NCBI GenBank assembly: GCA_016937945.1
Contig: JAFGVP010000013.1
Span: forward strand, 1-64,000
Length of the DNA stretch: 64,000 nucleotides
Reading direction: 5' to 3'
From: Pontiellaceae bacterium
GTDB lineage: Bacteria; Verrucomicrobiota; Kiritimatiellia; Kiritimatiellales; Pontiellaceae
Shown: piece by piece, positions 57,461-64,000 of the stretch
Layout of the letters: each line of letters begins with the position of its first letter
How positions within the stretch are numbered: position 1 is the first letter of the stretch
Made by a program: the position numbers and the translations under genes
The notes under the pieces: model-generated
Database searches by the model: none
Told to the model about the DNA's origin: nothing
What the model saw: only the letters and a program-made list of their open reading frames with translations

Positions 57461-59167
57461 ATGAAAAGGGGAATTTATAAACAGGTCGCCGTAATGGTGG
57501 TGGCCGTTGCCGGAGTGGCTCAGGCCGCAGTGATTGAAAAGCCCGTGGGCGTTCCCGGAACGATGGTTTCGGTGACGGCATCGGATCTGCATGGATTGAT
57601 TGACGGAGTCGGCGCTGTGGCGGCTTCAGTTTCTCCCATGGCTAACGGGATGATGCTGAAAAATCTACTGGGAGCTCAGTTTAATGATCCGGGTCTTATG
57701 GCGGTTCCGGCAGGTAAAGGCCTGGCGGTTGTCATTGTGGACCAGACCAATTTTTTCGGTTTCGTGGAGCTTACCGAATCGCATGCCGCCGGATACTCTT
57801 CGATGCTTGAACAGAACGGACTCAAGACAAAGTATGTCGATGGCGTAATGGTTGTGGGCAAGGATGCCTCGCAGTTGGAAAAGGGCGTCGGCATGATTTC
57901 TTCTGTCAAATCATCGGTGCTGGCAAAACGGAGCCCGACCCTGCGTCTTTGTGCCGAGCCGGCGTGGGCGTATGAACAGAATAAACAGCAGGTTGACAGC
58001 ATGCTGCAGATGATTCCTATGATGATGGGCATGAACCTCCAGCAGGCTCCCGGAATGGATCCGGCGGCCCTCCAGGGAACGATGCGGATATTGGAAGGAG
58101 AAATTCGCGCCCTCGTTTCCATTGCAAAGCAGTGTGAGAAGGTTGAGATCGTTCTTGATCCGAGCAATGGCGCTCTGCGTATCAGCGAAACCCTCCTTCC
58201 CAAAGAAGGCAGCCGTATGGCGGCCCTGCTGAATGCCCCTAAAATGATTGCACCGAATCCCCGGGTTCAGGCGCGAATGCTCGGCGATGCCGCCATCGCC
58301 CTTGACGGAACCCTTTCCAATCCCGAAGCACTGACGACCTTCTTCTTTGAAGAGATCAAGGTGATTCTTGCGGAGATGGGCCTCGCCGCCGACTCGATGG
58401 ATGAGATGAACGCTGAAATGAAGAAATGGATGGATCTGTATGGCGGCTCATTCTGCGAGTCCATTGATCTCGGCGGGGAAAATTTTGTTTCCGTCAACTA
58501 TGCGATTGAGCTGAAAGAGGGCGCAAACCCGTTGGCTGCCTTCAAGTCCATGAGTGACGACATGGCGCCGTTCCTCGAACTCTATGAAGGACTCGGCATG
58601 CCGATGAAGATGGAATTCGTTGAAAATGCCCGCGAATACAAAGGGGTGAAGGTTCATCAGTTCAAGGTCAACCTTGATATGCCGGGAGACCAGATGGAAG
58701 CGGCTGCCATGATGAATATGAACCTCAGCAACATGGTCTACGACGTCGCTGTATGTGATAACCTGATGCTCTATTCCATGGGCGGCTCCGGTCTTGATGC
58801 CATGGTCGACCGTGTGAAGGATGCAGAATATACGGTAACTCCTCTTAAGGCTCGGACGGTTTATCCGGCAAACGGATTTTATTATAGCGATATTGATATC
58901 GGTAAATATATGGCCGGTATTTCAAAGGTCATGCCGGCCGATGCCGGAAATCCGCTGCCGCAGATTGCAGGTATGCTTCAGGGGGCTGAGCCGATTACCT
59001 CGGCCGGATTTACTGAAGACGGAATGATGATGTGGAGTGTCAATGTTCCGGGATCGCTGCTTGGGCGGGTCGGTCAGGCGGTCATGATGATGCAGATGCA
59101 GCAGATGAGCCAGCCCATGCCCGGCGCCATGCCGATGGAGGTGCCGTCGGCACTGCCGATGCCCTGA
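57461..59167 (+). CDS. Secreted methionine-rich protein of unknown function
   Basis: A 568-residue protein with a signal peptide (QVAVMVVAVAGVAQA) and a strong ribosome site (GGAGGA). It is remarkably rich in Met, with clusters QMIPMMMGMNL, PGDQMEAAAMMNMN and the tail AVMMMQMQQMSQPMPGAMPM. The chain is otherwise a mix of beta and helical segments without any recognised family. Such Met clusters can bind copper or silver, or just reflect flexible helix faces; sequence alone does not decide. It stands alone between its own promoter and a strong terminator and so is probably well expressed. Confidence 0.85.
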   Translation: MKRGIYKQVAVMVVAVAGVAQAAVIEKPVGVPGTMVSVTASDLHGLIDGVGAVAASVSPMANGMMLKNLLGAQFNDPGLMAVPAGKGLAVVIVDQTNFFGFVELTESHAAGYSSMLEQNGLKTKYVDGVMVVGKDASQLEKGVGMISSVKSSVLAKRSPTLRLCAEPAWAYEQNKQQVDSMLQMIPMMMGMNLQQAPGMDPAALQGTMRILEGEIRALVSIAKQCEKVEIVLDPSNGALRISETLLPKEGSRMAALLNAPKMIAPNPRVQARMLGDAAIALDGTLSNPEALTTFFFEEIKVILAEMGLAADSMDEMNAEMKKWMDLYGGSFCESIDLGGENFVSVNYAIELKEGANPLAAFKSMSDDMAPFLELYEGLGMPMKMEFVENAREYKGVKVHQFKVNLDMPGDQMEAAAMMNMNLSNMVYDVAVCDNLMLYSMGGSGLDAMVDRVKDAEYTVTPLKARTVYPANGFYYSDIDIGKYMAGISKVMPADAGNPLPQIAGMLQGAEPITSAGFTEDGMMMWSVNVPGSLLGRVGQAVMMMQMQQMSQPMPGAMPMEVPSALPMP

Positions 59168-59227: not shown

Positions 59228-59257
59228 GTGCCATTGGATTTAATAAAGGAGGATGCA

Positions 59258-60043
59258 ATGAAATGTCATGAAGTTGATTATTCGATTATCGGAAATGACC
59301 TGCAGGTGGTCGAAGTGGAACTGGATCCGCGCGAAACCGTGATTGCCGAGGCCGGCGCCATGAACTGGATGGATGATAAGATTTCGTTTGAAGCTAAGAT
59401 GGGTGATGGATCGAATCCCGGCGAAGGCATGTTCGGAAAGCTGCTGGGCGCCGGAAAAAGAGCGCTGACAGGGGAAAGCCTTTTTATGACACATTTTACC
59501 AATGTGGGTGACGGGAAACGCCGGGTAGCCTTCGGGGCGCCGTATCCCGGAAAGATTGTTCCGCTGGATATGGCCGCCTGCGGCGGCGAAATCCTCTGCC
59601 AGAAGGATGCATTTCTTTGTGCGGCCTATGGGACTTCTGTTGGAATTGCCTTCAATAAACGGCTGGGAGCCGGTTTTTTCGGAGGGGAAGGGTTTATTCT
59701 GGAGCGTCTGCGCGGCGATGGCATGGCTTTTCTGCATGCCGGAGGCACCGTGGTGAAAAAGGAGCTGAACAATGAACTCGTCAAGATTGATACCGGCTGC
59801 ATTGTGGCCTTTACGCCGGGGATCGAATACAGCATTGAGCGCGTCGGATTGAAATCCATGTTCTTCGGAGGGGAAGGGCTCTTTCTTGCCACGTTGCGCG
59901 GCACCGGAACCATCTATCTGCAAAGCCTGCCGTTTTCCCGTCTGGCCGACCGGATTATCCAGCATGCTCCGAGCGCCGGAGGTCAGCGCAAGGGGGAAGG
60001 ATCGGTTCTTGGTATTGTAGGAGACCTGCTCGGTGGCGATTAA
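59258..60043 (+). CDS. AIM24 / TIGR00266-family protein
   Basis: A 261-residue protein from ATG 59258 ([20 protein letters not shown]), with AAAGGAGG upstream; ten codons before it are ignored. It shows the Gly-rich beta-helical repeat of the family ([56 protein letters not shown]) and the conserved [10 protein letters not shown] near the end. The family is widespread; the yeast relative AIM24 is mitochondrial, but the bacterial role is unknown. It has no signal peptide. A terminator follows directly. Confidence 0.93.
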
Positions 60044-60065: not shown

Positions 60066-60097
60066 AATCTCCGCTGTTTTCAGCGGGGATTTTTTTT
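60066..60097. terminator. Terminator between converging genes
   Basis: Stem AATCTCCGCTG / CAGCGGGGATT (one G-T pair) with a TTTT loop, followed by a T run on the plus strand. It ends the AIM24-type gene; the minus-strand gene stop at 60096 overlaps its T run. Confidence 0.85.
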
Positions 60098-60365
60098 ATT
60101 GGGAAAACGAGAAGAGCGCGAAGCAGGATCCGATCAGCAGCAAAGGCGAAATGAGCAGCATACTGAGGACGCCGGCGCCGATCATTGGCCGGTGGGTGAC
60201 AAATGAAACAATGGCGCTGGTCAGCAATACCGCACCGCCGATAACCAACGGAGCGGGTGAACTCGCGGAAAATGTAAGGAAGATGCATAGAATGGCAATG
60301 GCGAGAGAGCAAACGAAGCCTAAGAGAAAATCGAGGCCGCGTCTGTTTTTCATATCATCACTCAT
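60096..60365 (-). CDS. Small membrane protein, last gene of radical SAM lipid unit
   Basis: An 89-residue protein (MSDDMKNRRGLDFLLGFVCS) with about three hydrophobic helices (LLGFVCSLAIAILCIFLTF, LVIGGAVLLTSAIVSF, LSMLLISPLLLIGSCFALF). No family recognised. Its start overlaps the end of the Lgt-like gene by 8 bases, so it is probably translated with it. It may be an accessory to the membrane enzyme upstream. Confidence 0.75.
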   Translation of the reverse strand: MSDDMKNRRGLDFLLGFVCSLAIAILCIFLTFSASSPAPLVIGGAVLLTSAIVSFVTHRPMIGAGVLSMLLISPLLLIGSCFALFSFSQ

Positions 60366-61092
60366 CGGTTTTCTCCTTTGATTGCATGAGTTTATTCTTT
60401 GCCAACAGGGTAAGCATTCCCGCGATACATATCCATTGAAATGTCGTCAATCCTGCCTGAATCGGATGGGTCCGCAGGAATTCCTCCAGAAAACGGAAGA
60501 CAAAATAGGCCATGAAATAACCGGTAAGCAGGCTACCCGGTGCCGCCGTTTTCCGGCGCAGCAGAAGAATGGTCAAGGCGCCGAAGCAAAAAAGCATTTC
60601 ATAGAGCTGGGTTGGGTGGCGTGCGATGCCGTCGCCAAAATCAATGCCCCATGGCAGGTTGGTCGGTTTTCCGAAACAGCATCCGCTGAGAAGGCATCCG
60701 ATCCGACCGATCGCCATGCCCAGCGCAATGGGGGCTGCGAGCCGGTTTCCGTAACGACCCTGAATCCCCAGCCGTTTTTTGATAAACAGTACCGCCAGCG
60801 TGCCGCCGACCAATCCGCCCACAATGGTTCGTCCTGCCAGTAGAGTTTCCCAGCTCACGCCGTGCCGGAGATTCAGCAGCAGGATCGGCAGTTTCGCCCC
60901 GATTACGCCGCCGATCAGGGCAGCAAGGGCAATCGGAAACAGCGGCCCGGACGGCTGGTCCCGTTTTCGTATTTCAATCATAAAGAGTCCGGCGCCCGCG
61001 GCAATGGCCAGCAGCATGAAAAGTGGATAGGCGGGGAATCCATCCGGGCAGAATCCCCAGCCATCCGGCGCCTGATGTGTCAGCTCCATCAT
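60358..61092 (-). CDS. Lgt-like diacylglyceryl transferase family protein
   Basis: A 244-residue protein with about seven hydrophobic segments. The signature GRIGCLLSGCCFGKPTNLPW, followed by RHPTQLYEM, belongs to the prolipoprotein diacylglyceryl transferase superfamily in its Cys-rich variant (the classical lgt motif has GRxGNF). Standard Lgt moves diacylglycerol from phosphatidylglycerol to the lipobox cysteine. The variant motif and its place in an operon with a Tes-like radical SAM enzyme and an ICMT-like methyltransferase make a paralogue acting on another lipid possible. The ATG overlaps the previous stop by 4 bases. Confidence 0.85.
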   Translation of the reverse strand: MMELTHQAPDGWGFCPDGFPAYPLFMLLAIAAGAGLFMIEIRKRDQPSGPLFPIALAALIGGVIGAKLPILLLNLRHGVSWETLLAGRTIVGGLVGGTLAVLFIKKRLGIQGRYGNRLAAPIALGMAIGRIGCLLSGCCFGKPTNLPWGIDFGDGIARHPTQLYEMLFCFGALTILLLRRKTAAPGSLLTGYFMAYFVFRFLEEFLRTHPIQAGLTTFQWICIAGMLTLLAKNKLMQSKEKTDE

Positions 61093-61670
61093 TTGGGTCG
61101 AGCTCCGATCCGGGGAAAGAAGCGGCCGATTTTATTCCGATAATTCAGATAAGCATCGCCGAAGGTGCGCGCCAGTTCTTTCTCTTCCAGATTGGATCGA
61201 TAAACCATGGCCGGAATAAAGATCAGTGCATTTTCGACGGCGGCCAGCGGGTTCAGGTAGGCGAGGGCTGCCCCGAAAAACATCCAGATGATGGAGGCAT
61301 AAAGCGGGTGCCGGACGATGCGGTAGGGGCCGTCGGTGACGAGCTGCTGGTCGTCGTAGATTCGTACATGGTCGGCCCAGTTGGTTTTGAGAAAAATACG
61401 CCCCCATATATTAAAGGCCGCACCGAACAGCATGAGTCCGAGCCCGGCTGATCGTACAAAGATCCATTGATCTGTATTCATCGCGCTCCATCGAAACCGG
61501 ATGGTCAGGTAGAGCAGGAGAAAGAACGCTGTCATGCTGGCCGTTGCCACCGGGCTGCGCCGTTCCCTGAACGAGCGTGACTTCCCGGTATTCAGGAAAT
61601 TGAATGCGATGGCCGCCAGCATAGCCAGCACGCACAGGGATGTAACGGCGTCTGCAATCAGATTAAACAC
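61089..61670 (-). CDS. ICMT-like membrane methyltransferase
   Basis: A 193-residue membrane protein. I place its start at GTG 61670, where AGGGA lies seven bases upstream and the reading frame overlaps the end of the radical SAM gene by 8 bases; the frame continues upstream to 61745 but only across the neighbour. Five hydrophobic stretches precede the motif DGPYRIVRHPLYASI, the signature of the isoprenylcysteine carboxyl methyltransferase / phospholipid methyltransferase group, which uses S-adenosylmethionine. The C-terminal EEKELARTFGDAYLNYRNKI block is also typical. Bacterial members methylate lipids or unknown targets; the substrate is not known here. Confidence 0.85.
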   Translation of the reverse strand: MFNLIADAVTSLCVLAMLAAIAFNFLNTGKSRSFRERRSPVATASMTAFFLLLYLTIRFRWSAMNTDQWIFVRSAGLGLMLFGAAFNIWGRIFLKTNWADHVRIYDDQQLVTDGPYRIVRHPLYASIIWMFFGAALAYLNPLAAVENALIFIPAMVYRSNLEEKELARTFGDAYLNYRNKIGRFFPRIGARPK

Positions 61671-63030
61671 GGGGCATTTCCCTGTAGAGGGTGTTATATG
61701 CGGAAAACGGAATTTTGGTTCCGTCCGGTTGTAGAACATGGGCACATTCCCGGCAGGCGCGGTTCAGGTCAAAATTCCAGTCATCGAGAAAGCCGGAGAC
61801 CGTCAGGTGGAAAAACCGGTCATGCACGAGGCGGGAGCGCTCTTCGATTGATCGGCTCAGCAGGTCGGGCGGGAGCCGCTTGGTCAGCGCTTCCAGGATT
61901 GGTCCTCCCTTGCATAAGCAGGCGCCGGCGGCGGCTTCCATCAGATCCTCGACCGATGCGGTGAGCGGATTTCCTTTCCACGCGTCGGACAGCACTCTCG
62001 GAATCGGCTGCCATGTTTTATTGATCTTTTCGAGATAGACCATGCTTGCCAGCCCGCAGGAGAGCGGAATGAAATCCTCGGTCCCGACCAGGCTGCCTGC
62101 AGATTGACTGAGCACATTGACAATTTCAGTCTGAGTTACCCGCTCTTCCGGTATACCCTGCTCCGGGTTTCGTCCGAAATAGGCCTCGCACTGATAATTA
62201 ATGCCCCGCACCGCAGGATGTTCGATGGCAAATTGAAGGAGCTCTCCGACCGATTCCAGATTCAGGTTCCGGCGCACGGTAACCACCAGTGTTGCTGGAA
62301 TTCCATGCTCCGCCAGAAGGTTCAGCGCCCGCAGTTTTTCTTCCAGAAGCGCCTTGCCTCGAAGTGTTTCGTAAATCCGGTCGTTCAATCCATCAAACTG
62401 GAGATAAACCTCAAATCCGTTTCCCAGTCGGGCGAGCTCCGCGACATCAATACGGCCGTCCTGCAGCGCCAGCCCGTTGGTGTTGAGCATTACATATTTA
62501 AACGGCCGCTGCATGGCGGTGCGAAGAATAGGAAGAATTTGCGGGTGCGTGGTGGGTTCGCCGCCGCTGACCTGCAGGATTTCCGGCTTTCCGTTGGCGG
62601 ACTCCACGGCGGAATCGAGCATTCGTTCAATGGTTTTCAGTGGAAGGAAAGAGCCGCTTCCTGAGTCGGCATAGCAAACCGGACAGCCCAGATCGCAGGA
62701 ATCGGTGATTTCGATCAGCGCGATGCAGCTTTTCTGTCGATGCGCCGGGCACAGCCCGCAGTCAAACGGACAGCCGCGTTCTGCCGTTTTCTGGCTGTTT
62801 TCCGGTGCGGTATTCGGTCGCCGGCTCGATTCCCACCGCCGGTAAAGGGCGGCATCATGTTCGACGAGGGTATCTCTGGAGCCGCAGGCCGGGCAGTCGG
62901 AGTGAAGGTAGAGAGCTCCGTTGAGTTCGACGGTTTGCGCCGGAACCGCCGTTCTGCAGGCTGCACAATAAGACTGAGTATGAGTTAATAGTTCCATTTT
63001 GAGCCATTCTGTCATGGGCCATGACGCCAT
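61663..63030 (-). CDS. Tes/MJ0619-like radical SAM protein
   Basis: About 455 residues from ATG 63030; ATGs at 63015 and 62997 are alternatives and none has a strong ribosome site. An N-terminal zinc-ribbon-like part (Cys22/25 and Cys46/49) leads to CPFDCGLCPAHRQKSC (Cys87, 91, 94, 102) and the radical SAM site Cys112-x3-Cys116-x2-Cys119 in SCDLGCPVCYAD, then VSGGEPT. This order of CPxDCGLCPxH plus CDLxCPVCYA is characteristic of the MJ0619-like family, to which the archaeal tetraether synthase Tes belongs. C-terminal cysteines (GACLCKGG, CRECAH) complete the set. It leads an operon of membrane-lipid-type enzymes. Confidence 0.85.
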   Translation of the reverse strand: MASWPMTEWLKMELLTHTQSYCAACRTAVPAQTVELNGALYLHSDCPACGSRDTLVEHDAALYRRWESSRRPNTAPENSQKTAERGCPFDCGLCPAHRQKSCIALIEITDSCDLGCPVCYADSGSGSFLPLKTIERMLDSAVESANGKPEILQVSGGEPTTHPQILPILRTAMQRPFKYVMLNTNGLALQDGRIDVAELARLGNGFEVYLQFDGLNDRIYETLRGKALLEEKLRALNLLAEHGIPATLVVTVRRNLNLESVGELLQFAIEHPAVRGINYQCEAYFGRNPEQGIPEERVTQTEIVNVLSQSAGSLVGTEDFIPLSCGLASMVYLEKINKTWQPIPRVLSDAWKGNPLTASVEDLMEAAAGACLCKGGPILEALTKRLPPDLLSRSIEERSRLVHDRFFHLTVSGFLDDWNFDLNRACRECAHVLQPDGTKIPFSAYNTLYREMPRV

Positions 63031-63125
63031 CAAGGTATTTTCCCGTTTTTCTTTGTGCGTTTTGCCGGATGAACAGCTATCCTTCCCGCCATCTTTTTCA
63101 ACGCATTGGAACGAAGGAATACAGC

Positions 63126-64000
63126 ATGATTTACAGAATTGAGATCGGATTGAAAGACGGTGTGCCGGATGCACGCGGTCGTGGAGTGATTCATCGAGCT
63201 GCCGGCGCCCTGAAGATGGAGCTTACGGATTGCCGCACTCGCGACATCTATAAAGTGGTTGCAAATATTGATGATTCGCTGGCGGCCACGGTCCAGAAAA
63301 CCTTTGCTGATCCGGTGGTGGCCGAGTCCGCCATGGGGCGCCTTCCGGCGCCGGAATCCTTTGACTGGATGCTCGAAGTCGGATTCAAGCCGGGTGTGAC
63401 CGATAACGTTGGCCGTACGGCCCGCGGAGCTCTCAAGGATATCGTCGGTCGTGACCTCGATTGGGAAGAACAGGTTTATACCTGTATTCAGTATTTCCTT
63501 TCCGGCAGCCTCAGCCGTGAAGATGTTGAGCATCTGGGCAAAGACCTGCTGGCCAATACCCTGATCCAGACCATTTCCGTCTTCTCGAAGGAGGAATGGC
63601 TGGCGTCCGATCCGGATGTCAGTGCCCCGATTTTTGACGATCATCCCGAGATCAAGGTGAACACCATTGAGCTTCCCGATGATGATGCGGCGCTGATGAA
63701 GATTTCCAGTGACGGCATTCTGTCGCTCTCGCTCGACGAAATGCGGGCCATTCGTAACCACTACCTGCGCGACGACGTCAAGGCGCACCGCGCCGAGCTC
63801 GATCTGCCGGAATGGCCGACCGATATTGAGCTCGAATGTATCGCCCAGACCTGGTCCGAGCACTGCTCCCATAAGATTTTTGCCGGAACGGTTAACTACA
63901 GGGACGAAGAAACCGGCGAAGAAGAGACCATTCATTCGCTCTACAAAAGCTATGTTAAAGCCTCCACCAAAAAGGTCGAAGAGTCGATCGATTGGCTGGT
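63126..64000 (+). CDS. purL: Phosphoribosylformylglycinamidine synthase with PurS-like N-terminus (3' end outside window)
   Basis: The first 291 codons are visible. Two PurS-like blocks occur in tandem: YRIEIGLKDGVPDARGRG (residues 3-20) and LEVGFKPGVTDNVGRTARGA (about 84-103). The PurL catalytic region begins with IAQTWSEHCSHKIFAGTV, which carries the active-site His. This PurS-PurL fusion is an established arrangement in several phyla. The enzyme converts FGAR to FGAM using ATP and, with PurQ, glutamine. GAAGGAA precedes ATG 63126. It is divergent from the radical SAM gene, with under 100 bases between starts. Confidence 0.93.
   Translation, partial: MIYRIEIGLKDGVPDARGRGVIHRAAGALKMELTDCRTRDIYKVVANIDDSLAATVQKTFADPVVAESAMGRLPAPESFDWMLEVGFKPGVTDNVGRTARGALKDIVGRDLDWEEQVYTCIQYFLSGSLSREDVEHLGKDLLANTLIQTISVFSKEEWLASDPDVSAPIFDDHPEIKVNTIELPDDDAALMKISSDGILSLSLDEMRAIRNHYLRDDVKAHRAELDLPEWPTDIELECIAQTWSEHCSHKIFAGTVNYRDEETGEEETIHSLYKSYVKASTKKVEESIDWL

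Follow-up and report, generated by a model that had tools for sequence, protein, structure and literature searches.

A clade of Tes/TrsS-superfamily radical SAM proteins whose genes adjoin that of a dedicated Lgt paralog and, usually, that of a small membrane protein with a cysteine near its end

Introduction

The locus studied here lies in a 64,000-nt stretch of DNA from a Pontiellaceae bacterium (contig JAFGVP010000013.1; this whole stretch is hereafter the window) and encodes a radical S-adenosylmethionine (SAM) protein of the Tes/TrsS superfamily, a membrane methyltransferase, an Lgt-like protein and, as the fourth, a small membrane protein (SMP). Tes (GDGT-MAS, MJ0619) is the archaeal tetraether synthase, in which a sulfide of the C-terminal cluster traps the radical on the lipid tail, the substrate carbon being bonded to a cluster sulfur (PMC9433317; this and the other papers given by PubMed Central (PMC) number are drawn on in excerpt). 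Hundreds of bacterial Tes homologs have been published, and they are known in print as possible makers, without functional proof, of the branched glycerol dialkyl glycerol tetraethers (brGDGTs) that serve as climate-proxy lipids (PMC8941075; PMC11868695). A bacterial tail-coupling enzyme, Mss, is said to share the Tes architecture in predicted models, and the membrane-spanning lipids of Bacillota have been attributed to it (PMC13274423); TrsS is listed in a table of selenoproteins (PMC13188914). In E. coli Lgt, which has its active site at the outer face, R143, Y235 and R239 are the donor or catalytic residues; every H103 mutant made fails complementation, and the lipobox peptide is proposed to bind there (PMC4728403).

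Our analysis showed a distinct clade of Tes/TrsS-superfamily radical SAM proteins whose genes, in many phyla, stand together with that of a dedicated Lgt paralog and as a rule with that of an SMP bearing an invariant cysteine near its end (SMP-Cys); the clade of the window additionally carries an ICMT/PEMT-like methyltransferase and often a DUF4395 protein. No account of an association between such a radical SAM protein and Lgt was found in the PMC literature, to which the search was confined, and the gene set has apparently not been described before.

A four-gene operon and its conservation

The four genes occupy positions 60096-63030 of the minus strand, to which all coordinates within the operon refer. 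An earlier note, made from the letters of this DNA, had placed four overlapping genes here with lipid-type enzymes as partners of the radical SAM gene, and both points were borne out, three of the genes being recognized by Pfam or NCBIfam profiles. They encode the radical SAM protein (61663..63030; 455 AA from the ATG at 63030, a start near codon 12 downstream of this ATG being possible), the ICMT/PEMT-like membrane methyltransferase (61089..61670; 193 AA), the Lgt-like protein (60358..61092; 244 AA) and SMP (60096..60365; 89 AA, with three transmembrane (TM) helices predicted by a hydrophobicity scan). Successive overlaps of 8, 4 and 8 nt, read from the sequence, indicate that the four genes form a single translationally coupled operon.

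The methyltransferase reading frame is open from position 61745, and its likely start is the GTG at 61670, where the overlap with the radical SAM stop is 8 nt (GTGTTTAA) and the same-genus ortholog is alike. Both PF04191 (3.7e-12) and PF04140 (9e-12) matched the protein above the gathering score. It is thus of the ICMT/PEMT type, and no DVU_1556-like gene was found at the window locus.

In a genome of the same genus (G001) all four genes are present in unchanged order, with identities of 73% for the radical SAM protein, 76% for the methyltransferase, 65% for the Lgt-like protein and 43% for SMP. Single-sequence scans of genome contigs and viral contigs returned no relatives. A profile scan with six aligned radical SAM sequences gave 517, and the best 80 of these were retained. 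Profiles built from the first finds detected an Lgt-like open reading frame (ORF), at E below 1e-15, in 60 of 95 radical SAM stretches; all-against-all clustering of the neighbour genes was dominated by shadow reading frames and gave no usable result.

A tree of the radical SAM proteins (92 rows, quick method without bootstrap; L043 and L115 omitted, L039-L041 absent from the alignment) placed the window protein within a clade of 11 with a Shimodaira-Hasegawa-like approximate likelihood ratio test (SH-aLRT) support of 95. Members come from its own phylum, Hydrogenedentes, Bacillota, Actinomycetota, Acidobacteriota, Elusimicrobiota, Armatimonadota and a possibly mis-binned Woesearchaeota bin. 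Lgt-like and ICMT genes are both present in 10 of the 11 loci; at the eleventh, L048, the contig ends inside the ICMT gene and before any Lgt gene, and its LGT+ICMT label was set by hand. The usual order is rSAM-ICMT-(DUF4395)-Lgt-SMP, rSAM standing for the radical SAM gene. The DUF4395 gene was tested in L050 (3.7e-12) and recognized by eye in L044, L047 and L049, and none was found between ICMT and Lgt in the four-row subclade of the window.

The sister clade comprises 40 radical SAM proteins (support 100) from Bacillota, Pseudomonadota, Cyanobacteriota, Bacteroidota, Planctomycetota and others, and an Lgt-like gene accompanies 39 of them, mostly in the order Lgt-rSAM-SMP. MJ0619 grouped with 31 further rows, of which 26 lack Lgt, at a support of 88, although it sits on a long branch, as do L031, L031b and L032, and its placement is unsure. 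At L072 the ICMT-like gene behind the tree label lies on the opposite strand. As few label changes along the tree as observed were seen in none of 500 shuffles. Given the same order in the same-genus genome and the rSAM-methyltransferase-Lgt set in at least seven phyla, the gene set recurs far beyond chance. A conserved association of the genes, whose absence the earlier note had named as a refutation, was found; the comparison with Tes kept the protein in the same superfamily and set it in its own clade, apart from the MJ0619 branch.

Since only 2 of 28 same-genus genomes, the window's own and G001, carry an ortholog of the radical SAM protein, the locus is patchy and probably moves horizontally.

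Lgt-linked loci of bacterial type also occur in two archaeal bins, L045 (Woesearchaeota metagenome-assembled genome (MAG) DUGD01000090.1) and L079 (a Thalassarchaeaceae MAG), by either transfer or mis-binning.

The radical SAM protein

The protein matched PF04055 (1.8e-20) and, at its N terminus, the zinc ribbon PF23545. The closest solved relative, and the sole close one, is GDGT-MAS (7tol, 1.3e-56). A model built from 25 aligned sequences (predicted local distance difference test (pLDDT) 87, predicted TM-score (pTM) 0.90) superposed on 7tom with Z 48.5 and a root-mean-square deviation of 3.2 over 435 aligned residues at 27% identity. By this model the protein is predicted to have the complete Tes fold, and membership of the Tes superfamily, as proposed earlier, holds by sequence and by fold.

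The cysteine pattern CPxDCGLCPxH ... CDLxCPVCYA reported in the earlier note is present as C87PFDC91GLC94PAH97 and C112DLGC116PVC119YA. Conservation was read from an alignment of 94 rows. The first stretch corresponds to the N-terminal auxiliary [4Fe-4S] site (C87xxxC91xxC94..H97; 62740..62772), with the cysteines conserved in 94/94, 92/94 and 94/94 rows, and the second to the radical SAM motif of PF04055 (C112xxxC116xxC119; 62674..62697), each Cys of which is kept in 94/94. Upstream lies a rubredoxin-like metal site, C22xxC25...C46xxC49 (62884..62967), whose first three Cys are found in 94/94 rows; the fourth ligand is Cys49, where Tes has His (CxxC...CxxH; reference ligands from PMC9433317).

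The C-terminal region departs from Tes. Among five candidate cluster cysteines of MJ0619 (338, 438, 455, 456 and 470), the window protein keeps only the counterpart of 456, Cys429 (61744..61746), and the labile Met439 of the Tes cluster has, by eye, no conserved counterpart; the M439A mutant of Tes is active (PMC9433317). Tes-type rows retain PC..C, CC and FC here, Paenibacillus-type rows show K-S-C, F-D/E and two extra cysteines, and window-type rows show R-E-C and F-S with the PxC cysteine lost. Since the cluster sulfur of Tes bonds the substrate carbon, the loss or rebuilding of this site argues for a chemistry that would differ from that of Tes. An additional CxC pair occurs in the proteins of the window, L028, L030 and L042, and the C-terminal cluster may have been rebuilt from other cysteines; the candidate ligands are Cys325, the CxC at about 371-373 and Cys429. 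A strict coupling between Lgt linkage and the loss of these Tes cysteines was rejected, as L072, L084, L116, L053 and L085 are Lgt-linked with a Tes-type set.

The best NCBIfam match was to TrsS (NF045646), with 308 bits along the whole length against a cut-off of 490, and the Tes/GDGT-MAS profile NF045702 gave 234 bits against 450, so that assignments as a true TrsS and as a true Tes were both rejected. Tes-like chemistry was not supported, with scores below both cut-offs, a position outside the MJ0619 branch (itself unsurely placed) and one of five candidate C-terminal cysteines kept. No member of the window clade is known to have a proven function.

The TrsS match raises the possibility that the locus is an offshoot of a TrsS/TrsM system, TrsM being presumably the DVU_1556 methyltransferase family, to which the Lgt-like and SMP genes were added later. 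NF045646 is also the best NCBIfam match of the four further members tested, and in the MJ0619 clade a methyltransferase gene comes after many of the radical SAM genes, its product being DVU_1556-like in both cases tested (NF045667, 130 and 137 bits, cut-off 155). Such an origin is nevertheless decidedly unlikely in our judgement: the cut-off of 490 was reached by none of five tested members nor in any of 387 phylum genomes, the DVU_1556-like gene is absent at the window locus, and two clades are generally linked to Lgt. Separately, at L051, L058 and other Tes-type loci (Chloroflexota, Acidobacteriota, others) the DVU_1556-like methyltransferase directly follows the radical SAM gene and has an N-terminal CCA motif.

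The Lgt-like protein

The Lgt-like protein matched PF01790 (3.5e-33, 115 bits against a gathering score of 24.9) and missed the NCBIfam equivalog cut-offs for Lgt, with 97 against 334 for NF000778, the best, and 54 against 118.9 for TIGR00544. It is the second Lgt of the genome; the canonical copy lies on another contig (G000:C140), scores 222 bits and has the SHGG and NFINGELWG motifs of the E. coli type. The only structural match of its model (pLDDT 88) was E. coli Lgt 5azb (E 2.2e-6, TM-score 0.63).

Lgt-like and radical SAM distances are correlated, with r 0.84 over 60 loci, 0.71 over 46 dereplicated loci and 0.76 over 10 window-clade loci, and in each of these three sets none of 2000 permutations was as high. 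The Lgt tree recovered the same window clade (10 rows, 97/81).

Among the linked Lgts, R143, Y235 and R239 have their equivalents in 59/60, 60/60 and 60/60, the window protein included, where Arg130 corresponds to R143. The position of H103 is occupied in the same 60 proteins by V (39), L (7), I (4), M (3), E (3), T (2), W (1) or A (1), never by His or Tyr, and is Val in the window. In 23 unlinked Lgts, drawn from the 30 best matches to the linked-Lgt alignment and therefore leaning towards the linked ones, it is Y in 21, F in one and M in one. With H103 lost and the three other residues kept, the linked proteins are predicted to have retained the donor side and changed the acceptor side.

The protein also carries GRIGCLLSGCCFGK, which the earlier note had taken as the mark of a special variant. 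This proposal (GRxGC..GCC as an unusual motif) was discarded: Cys in place of N146 occurs in 58 of 60 linked Lgts and in 23/23 unlinked Lgts of the phylum, and is uninformative.

Many genomes of the phylum (L129-L153) encode an Lgt that has FYGG in place of HGG and GRxGCFxNGCCYG in place of GRxGNFxNGExWG; this Lgt appears to be the essential enzyme itself in variant form. The two genomes with the Lgt-free radical SAM loci L037 and L036 have Lgt matches far from these loci, L150 (G350) and G312:C1:62789-63418. The L150 protein, counted among the 23 unlinked, groups with the linked Lgts and has Met at the H103 position; the radical SAM gene of G350 lies elsewhere.

The small membrane protein

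SMP matched no Pfam or NCBIfam profile. Among nine window-clade SMPs, the others being 20-43% identical to that of the window, the only invariant columns are Met1, Gly79 and Cys81. The latter two belong to a Gly-x-Cys motif, G79-S80-C81 (60123..60131), with which the last TM helix ends; the cysteine of this motif is a candidate lipid acceptor. Thirteen sister-clade SMPs share the Cys, a Gly and the start Met, and the two sets are homologous by hhalign (89.5%, E 2e-6), with the cysteines aligned. In all 22 the Cys lies 16-23 residues past the last Lys/Arg and 5-12 from the end; these ranges, derived from the same 22 proteins, were met by 5 of 75 other small multi-TM ORFs of the same stretches. 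The window SMP is predicted to be N-in/C-out, with Cys81 near the outer face as for a lipobox Cys.

An SMP-Cys was found in 40 of 58 loci with Lgt and in 1 of 31 without. This count covers 89 of the 95 stretches, leaving out L031 (a two-rSAM cluster), L039-L041 (weak distant matches) and L043 and L115 (truncated radical SAM genes); L030 and L042, whose SMPs were missed by the ORF filter, were scored positive by eye. Independent cases of this association are L072 and L116, which lie within the Tes-type clade and have both, and L036/L037, loci of the Verrucomicrobia type with neither an adjacent Lgt nor an SMP.

An SMP that is small and fast-evolving, with nothing but Met1 and GxC invariant, could also be a peptide substrate: the radical SAM protein would then be its maturase, forming, for instance, a thioether or a C-C crosslink at the Cys or close to it, and the Lgt-like protein would only anchor or lipidate the product. 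After 7tom and 7tol, the structural matches listed are indeed the peptide-modifying enzymes SuiB and SkfB and also MoaA (Z about 20). We regard a maturase as unlikely, because the Tes match is far stronger and spans the whole chain (Z 48.5 against 20.8 for the next other enzyme among the matches listed), Pfam found no SPASM or other peptide-recognition domain in the protein, and a cysteine at the outer face would be hard for a cytoplasmic enzyme to reach.

A proposed membrane-modification system

The explanation that we favour, tentatively, is a conserved membrane-modification system in which SMP is the acceptor, the Lgt-like protein diacylglycerates the SMP Cys and the radical SAM protein modifies the lipid or its attachment. 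We infer this chemistry, with SMP as acceptor, from the near-sole conserved cysteine in a terminal helix, an Lgt paralog with a rebuilt acceptor site and a radical SAM protein with a lipid-tail-coupling fold. The Lgt-like protein would bind phosphatidylglycerol through its conserved Arg/Tyr/Arg site and transfer the diacylglyceryl group onto the SMP Cys at the predicted periplasmic face. The cytoplasmic radical SAM protein would then take a hydrogen from a hydrophobic substrate and alter the attached lipid chain or the adjoining protein, and the methyltransferase might cap the product or a head group. The end product would be a small, radically modified inner-membrane lipoprotein and not a free lipid.

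A free membrane lipid is the substrate that the earlier note had in view. The radical SAM protein would couple lipids tail to tail or make some other change at the chain end, the Lgt-like protein and the ICMT/PEMT-like methyltransferase would act on the head-group side, and SMP would be accessory or lipid-presenting. Points in its favour are the full Tes fold, the phospholipid-binding residues kept in the Lgt-like protein, the PEMT-type methyltransferase in the operon, the suspected part of bacterial Tes homologs in brGDGT synthesis (PMC8941075; PMC11868695), the existence of Tes-type loci with an Lgt-like gene (L072, L084, L116) and a related radical SAM pair in the FabA/ketosynthase/SDR cluster of L031. 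We still find it rather doubtful, as the window clade has lost most cysteines of the C-terminal cluster, the cluster that in Tes carries the C-S intermediate, no lipid synthesis genes were seen to accompany the clade, and a mere accessory protein would not be expected to have an invariant Cys. That Cys, the best clue, speaks for a protein acceptor no less than for a free membrane lipid. The earlier observation is confirmed and its interpretation partly supported.

A highly improbable variant is a radical-based lipidation of transmembrane proteins: the SMP thiol, or its diacylglyceryl-modified form, would replace the lost cluster sulfide, and the radical SAM protein would join the end of a lipid tail to the protein or to a lipid of the opposite leaflet, giving a membrane-spanning lipid-protein hybrid.

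Several results weigh against SMP as a lipidated acceptor. The complete Tes fold makes a free lipid tail the best-precedented substrate, and the loss of H103 might mean that the acceptor is no Cys peptide or that the Lgt-like protein is inactive. Only 9 of 22 SMPs (controls, 3 of 75) fit the strict lipobox pattern as in PROSITE, and the orientation of SMP is read by eye from charge alone (positive-inside rule). The Fisher p of 4e-10 for the difference in SMP-Cys between loci with and without Lgt ignores relatedness, and six of the 40 positives (L032, L073, L076, L085, L086, L120) were scored on a loose motif. A 12-row, mainly alphaproteobacterial subclade has Lgt-rSAM with small neighbours mostly lacking a clear terminal Cys, and no SMP-Cys was detected in the Lgt-containing loci L045, L053, L079, L082, L084, L092, L096 and L098 or at the plasmid locus L155.

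SMP lipidation by the Lgt-like protein is a concrete hypothesis that can be tested quickly: a dedicated Lgt paralog would act on a Cys in the last TM helix of a partner protein. No example of such protein lipidation is known to us, and none was found in the PMC literature.

Flanking genes and other clusters

The operon is flanked by an AIM24 protein gene (59228-60043) on one side and by a PurS/PurL-like gene, named by eye (63021-64000), beyond the radical SAM gene. The AIM24 protein and a 568-AA protein without family assignment (57461-59167) also adjoin the locus in G001, with 83% and 42% identity; in that genome an ATPase-like gene intervenes between the radical SAM gene and the purine-type flank. 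Purine biosynthesis genes stand beside the radical SAM gene in two different families (by eye), the other being PurM-like (L030:9740-10786).

In a genome of the same class (G372; L031:344-7931), two Tes-superfamily radical SAM genes are clustered with genes for two SDR reductases, a FabA-like dehydratase and two ketosynthases, possibly an unusual fatty-acid or ladderane-like pathway. On a plasmid of Mycolicibacterium vanbaalenii (L154, NZ_CP126902.1) a pair of Tes-superfamily radical SAM and methyltransferase genes stands beside a second radical SAM gene, with a PhnD-like binding protein, an acyl-CoA dehydrogenase, a disulfide oxidoreductase and CcdA as further neighbours.

Comparison with known systems

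Our results set a large Lgt-linked section of the superfamily, in which the C-terminal cluster region is mostly altered, apart from the Tes-type section; the presence of a tes-like gene by itself should therefore not be taken to indicate membrane-spanning lipids. With Tes (7TOL/7TOM) the window protein shares the whole-chain fold, the rubredoxin-like site, the N-terminal auxiliary cluster site and the radical SAM motif. It differs in its 27% identity, mostly lost C-terminal cysteines, sub-cut-off score and separate clade, and also in its Lgt-like and SMP partners, which are not mentioned in the excerpts of the Tes papers. Any likeness to Mss would lie in the Tes architecture that predicted models are said to give that enzyme. 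The TrsS radical SAM (seleno)protein is its best profile match over the full length, yet the score is below 490, and the window locus has Lgt-like and SMP partners in place of a DVU_1556-type methyltransferase.

The methyltransferase resembles ICMT/PEMT in its two Pfam families and in its match to 4a2n (1.6e-10), and unlike ICMT it reached only 66 bits with NF040696 against a cut-off of 160. The Lgt-like protein has the fold of E. coli Lgt (5AZB; PF01790) and equivalents of its R143, Y235, R239 and G154; unlike that enzyme, all linked members have lost the H103 equivalent, and its gene adjoins the radical SAM gene, with the canonical Lgt encoded separately in the genome.

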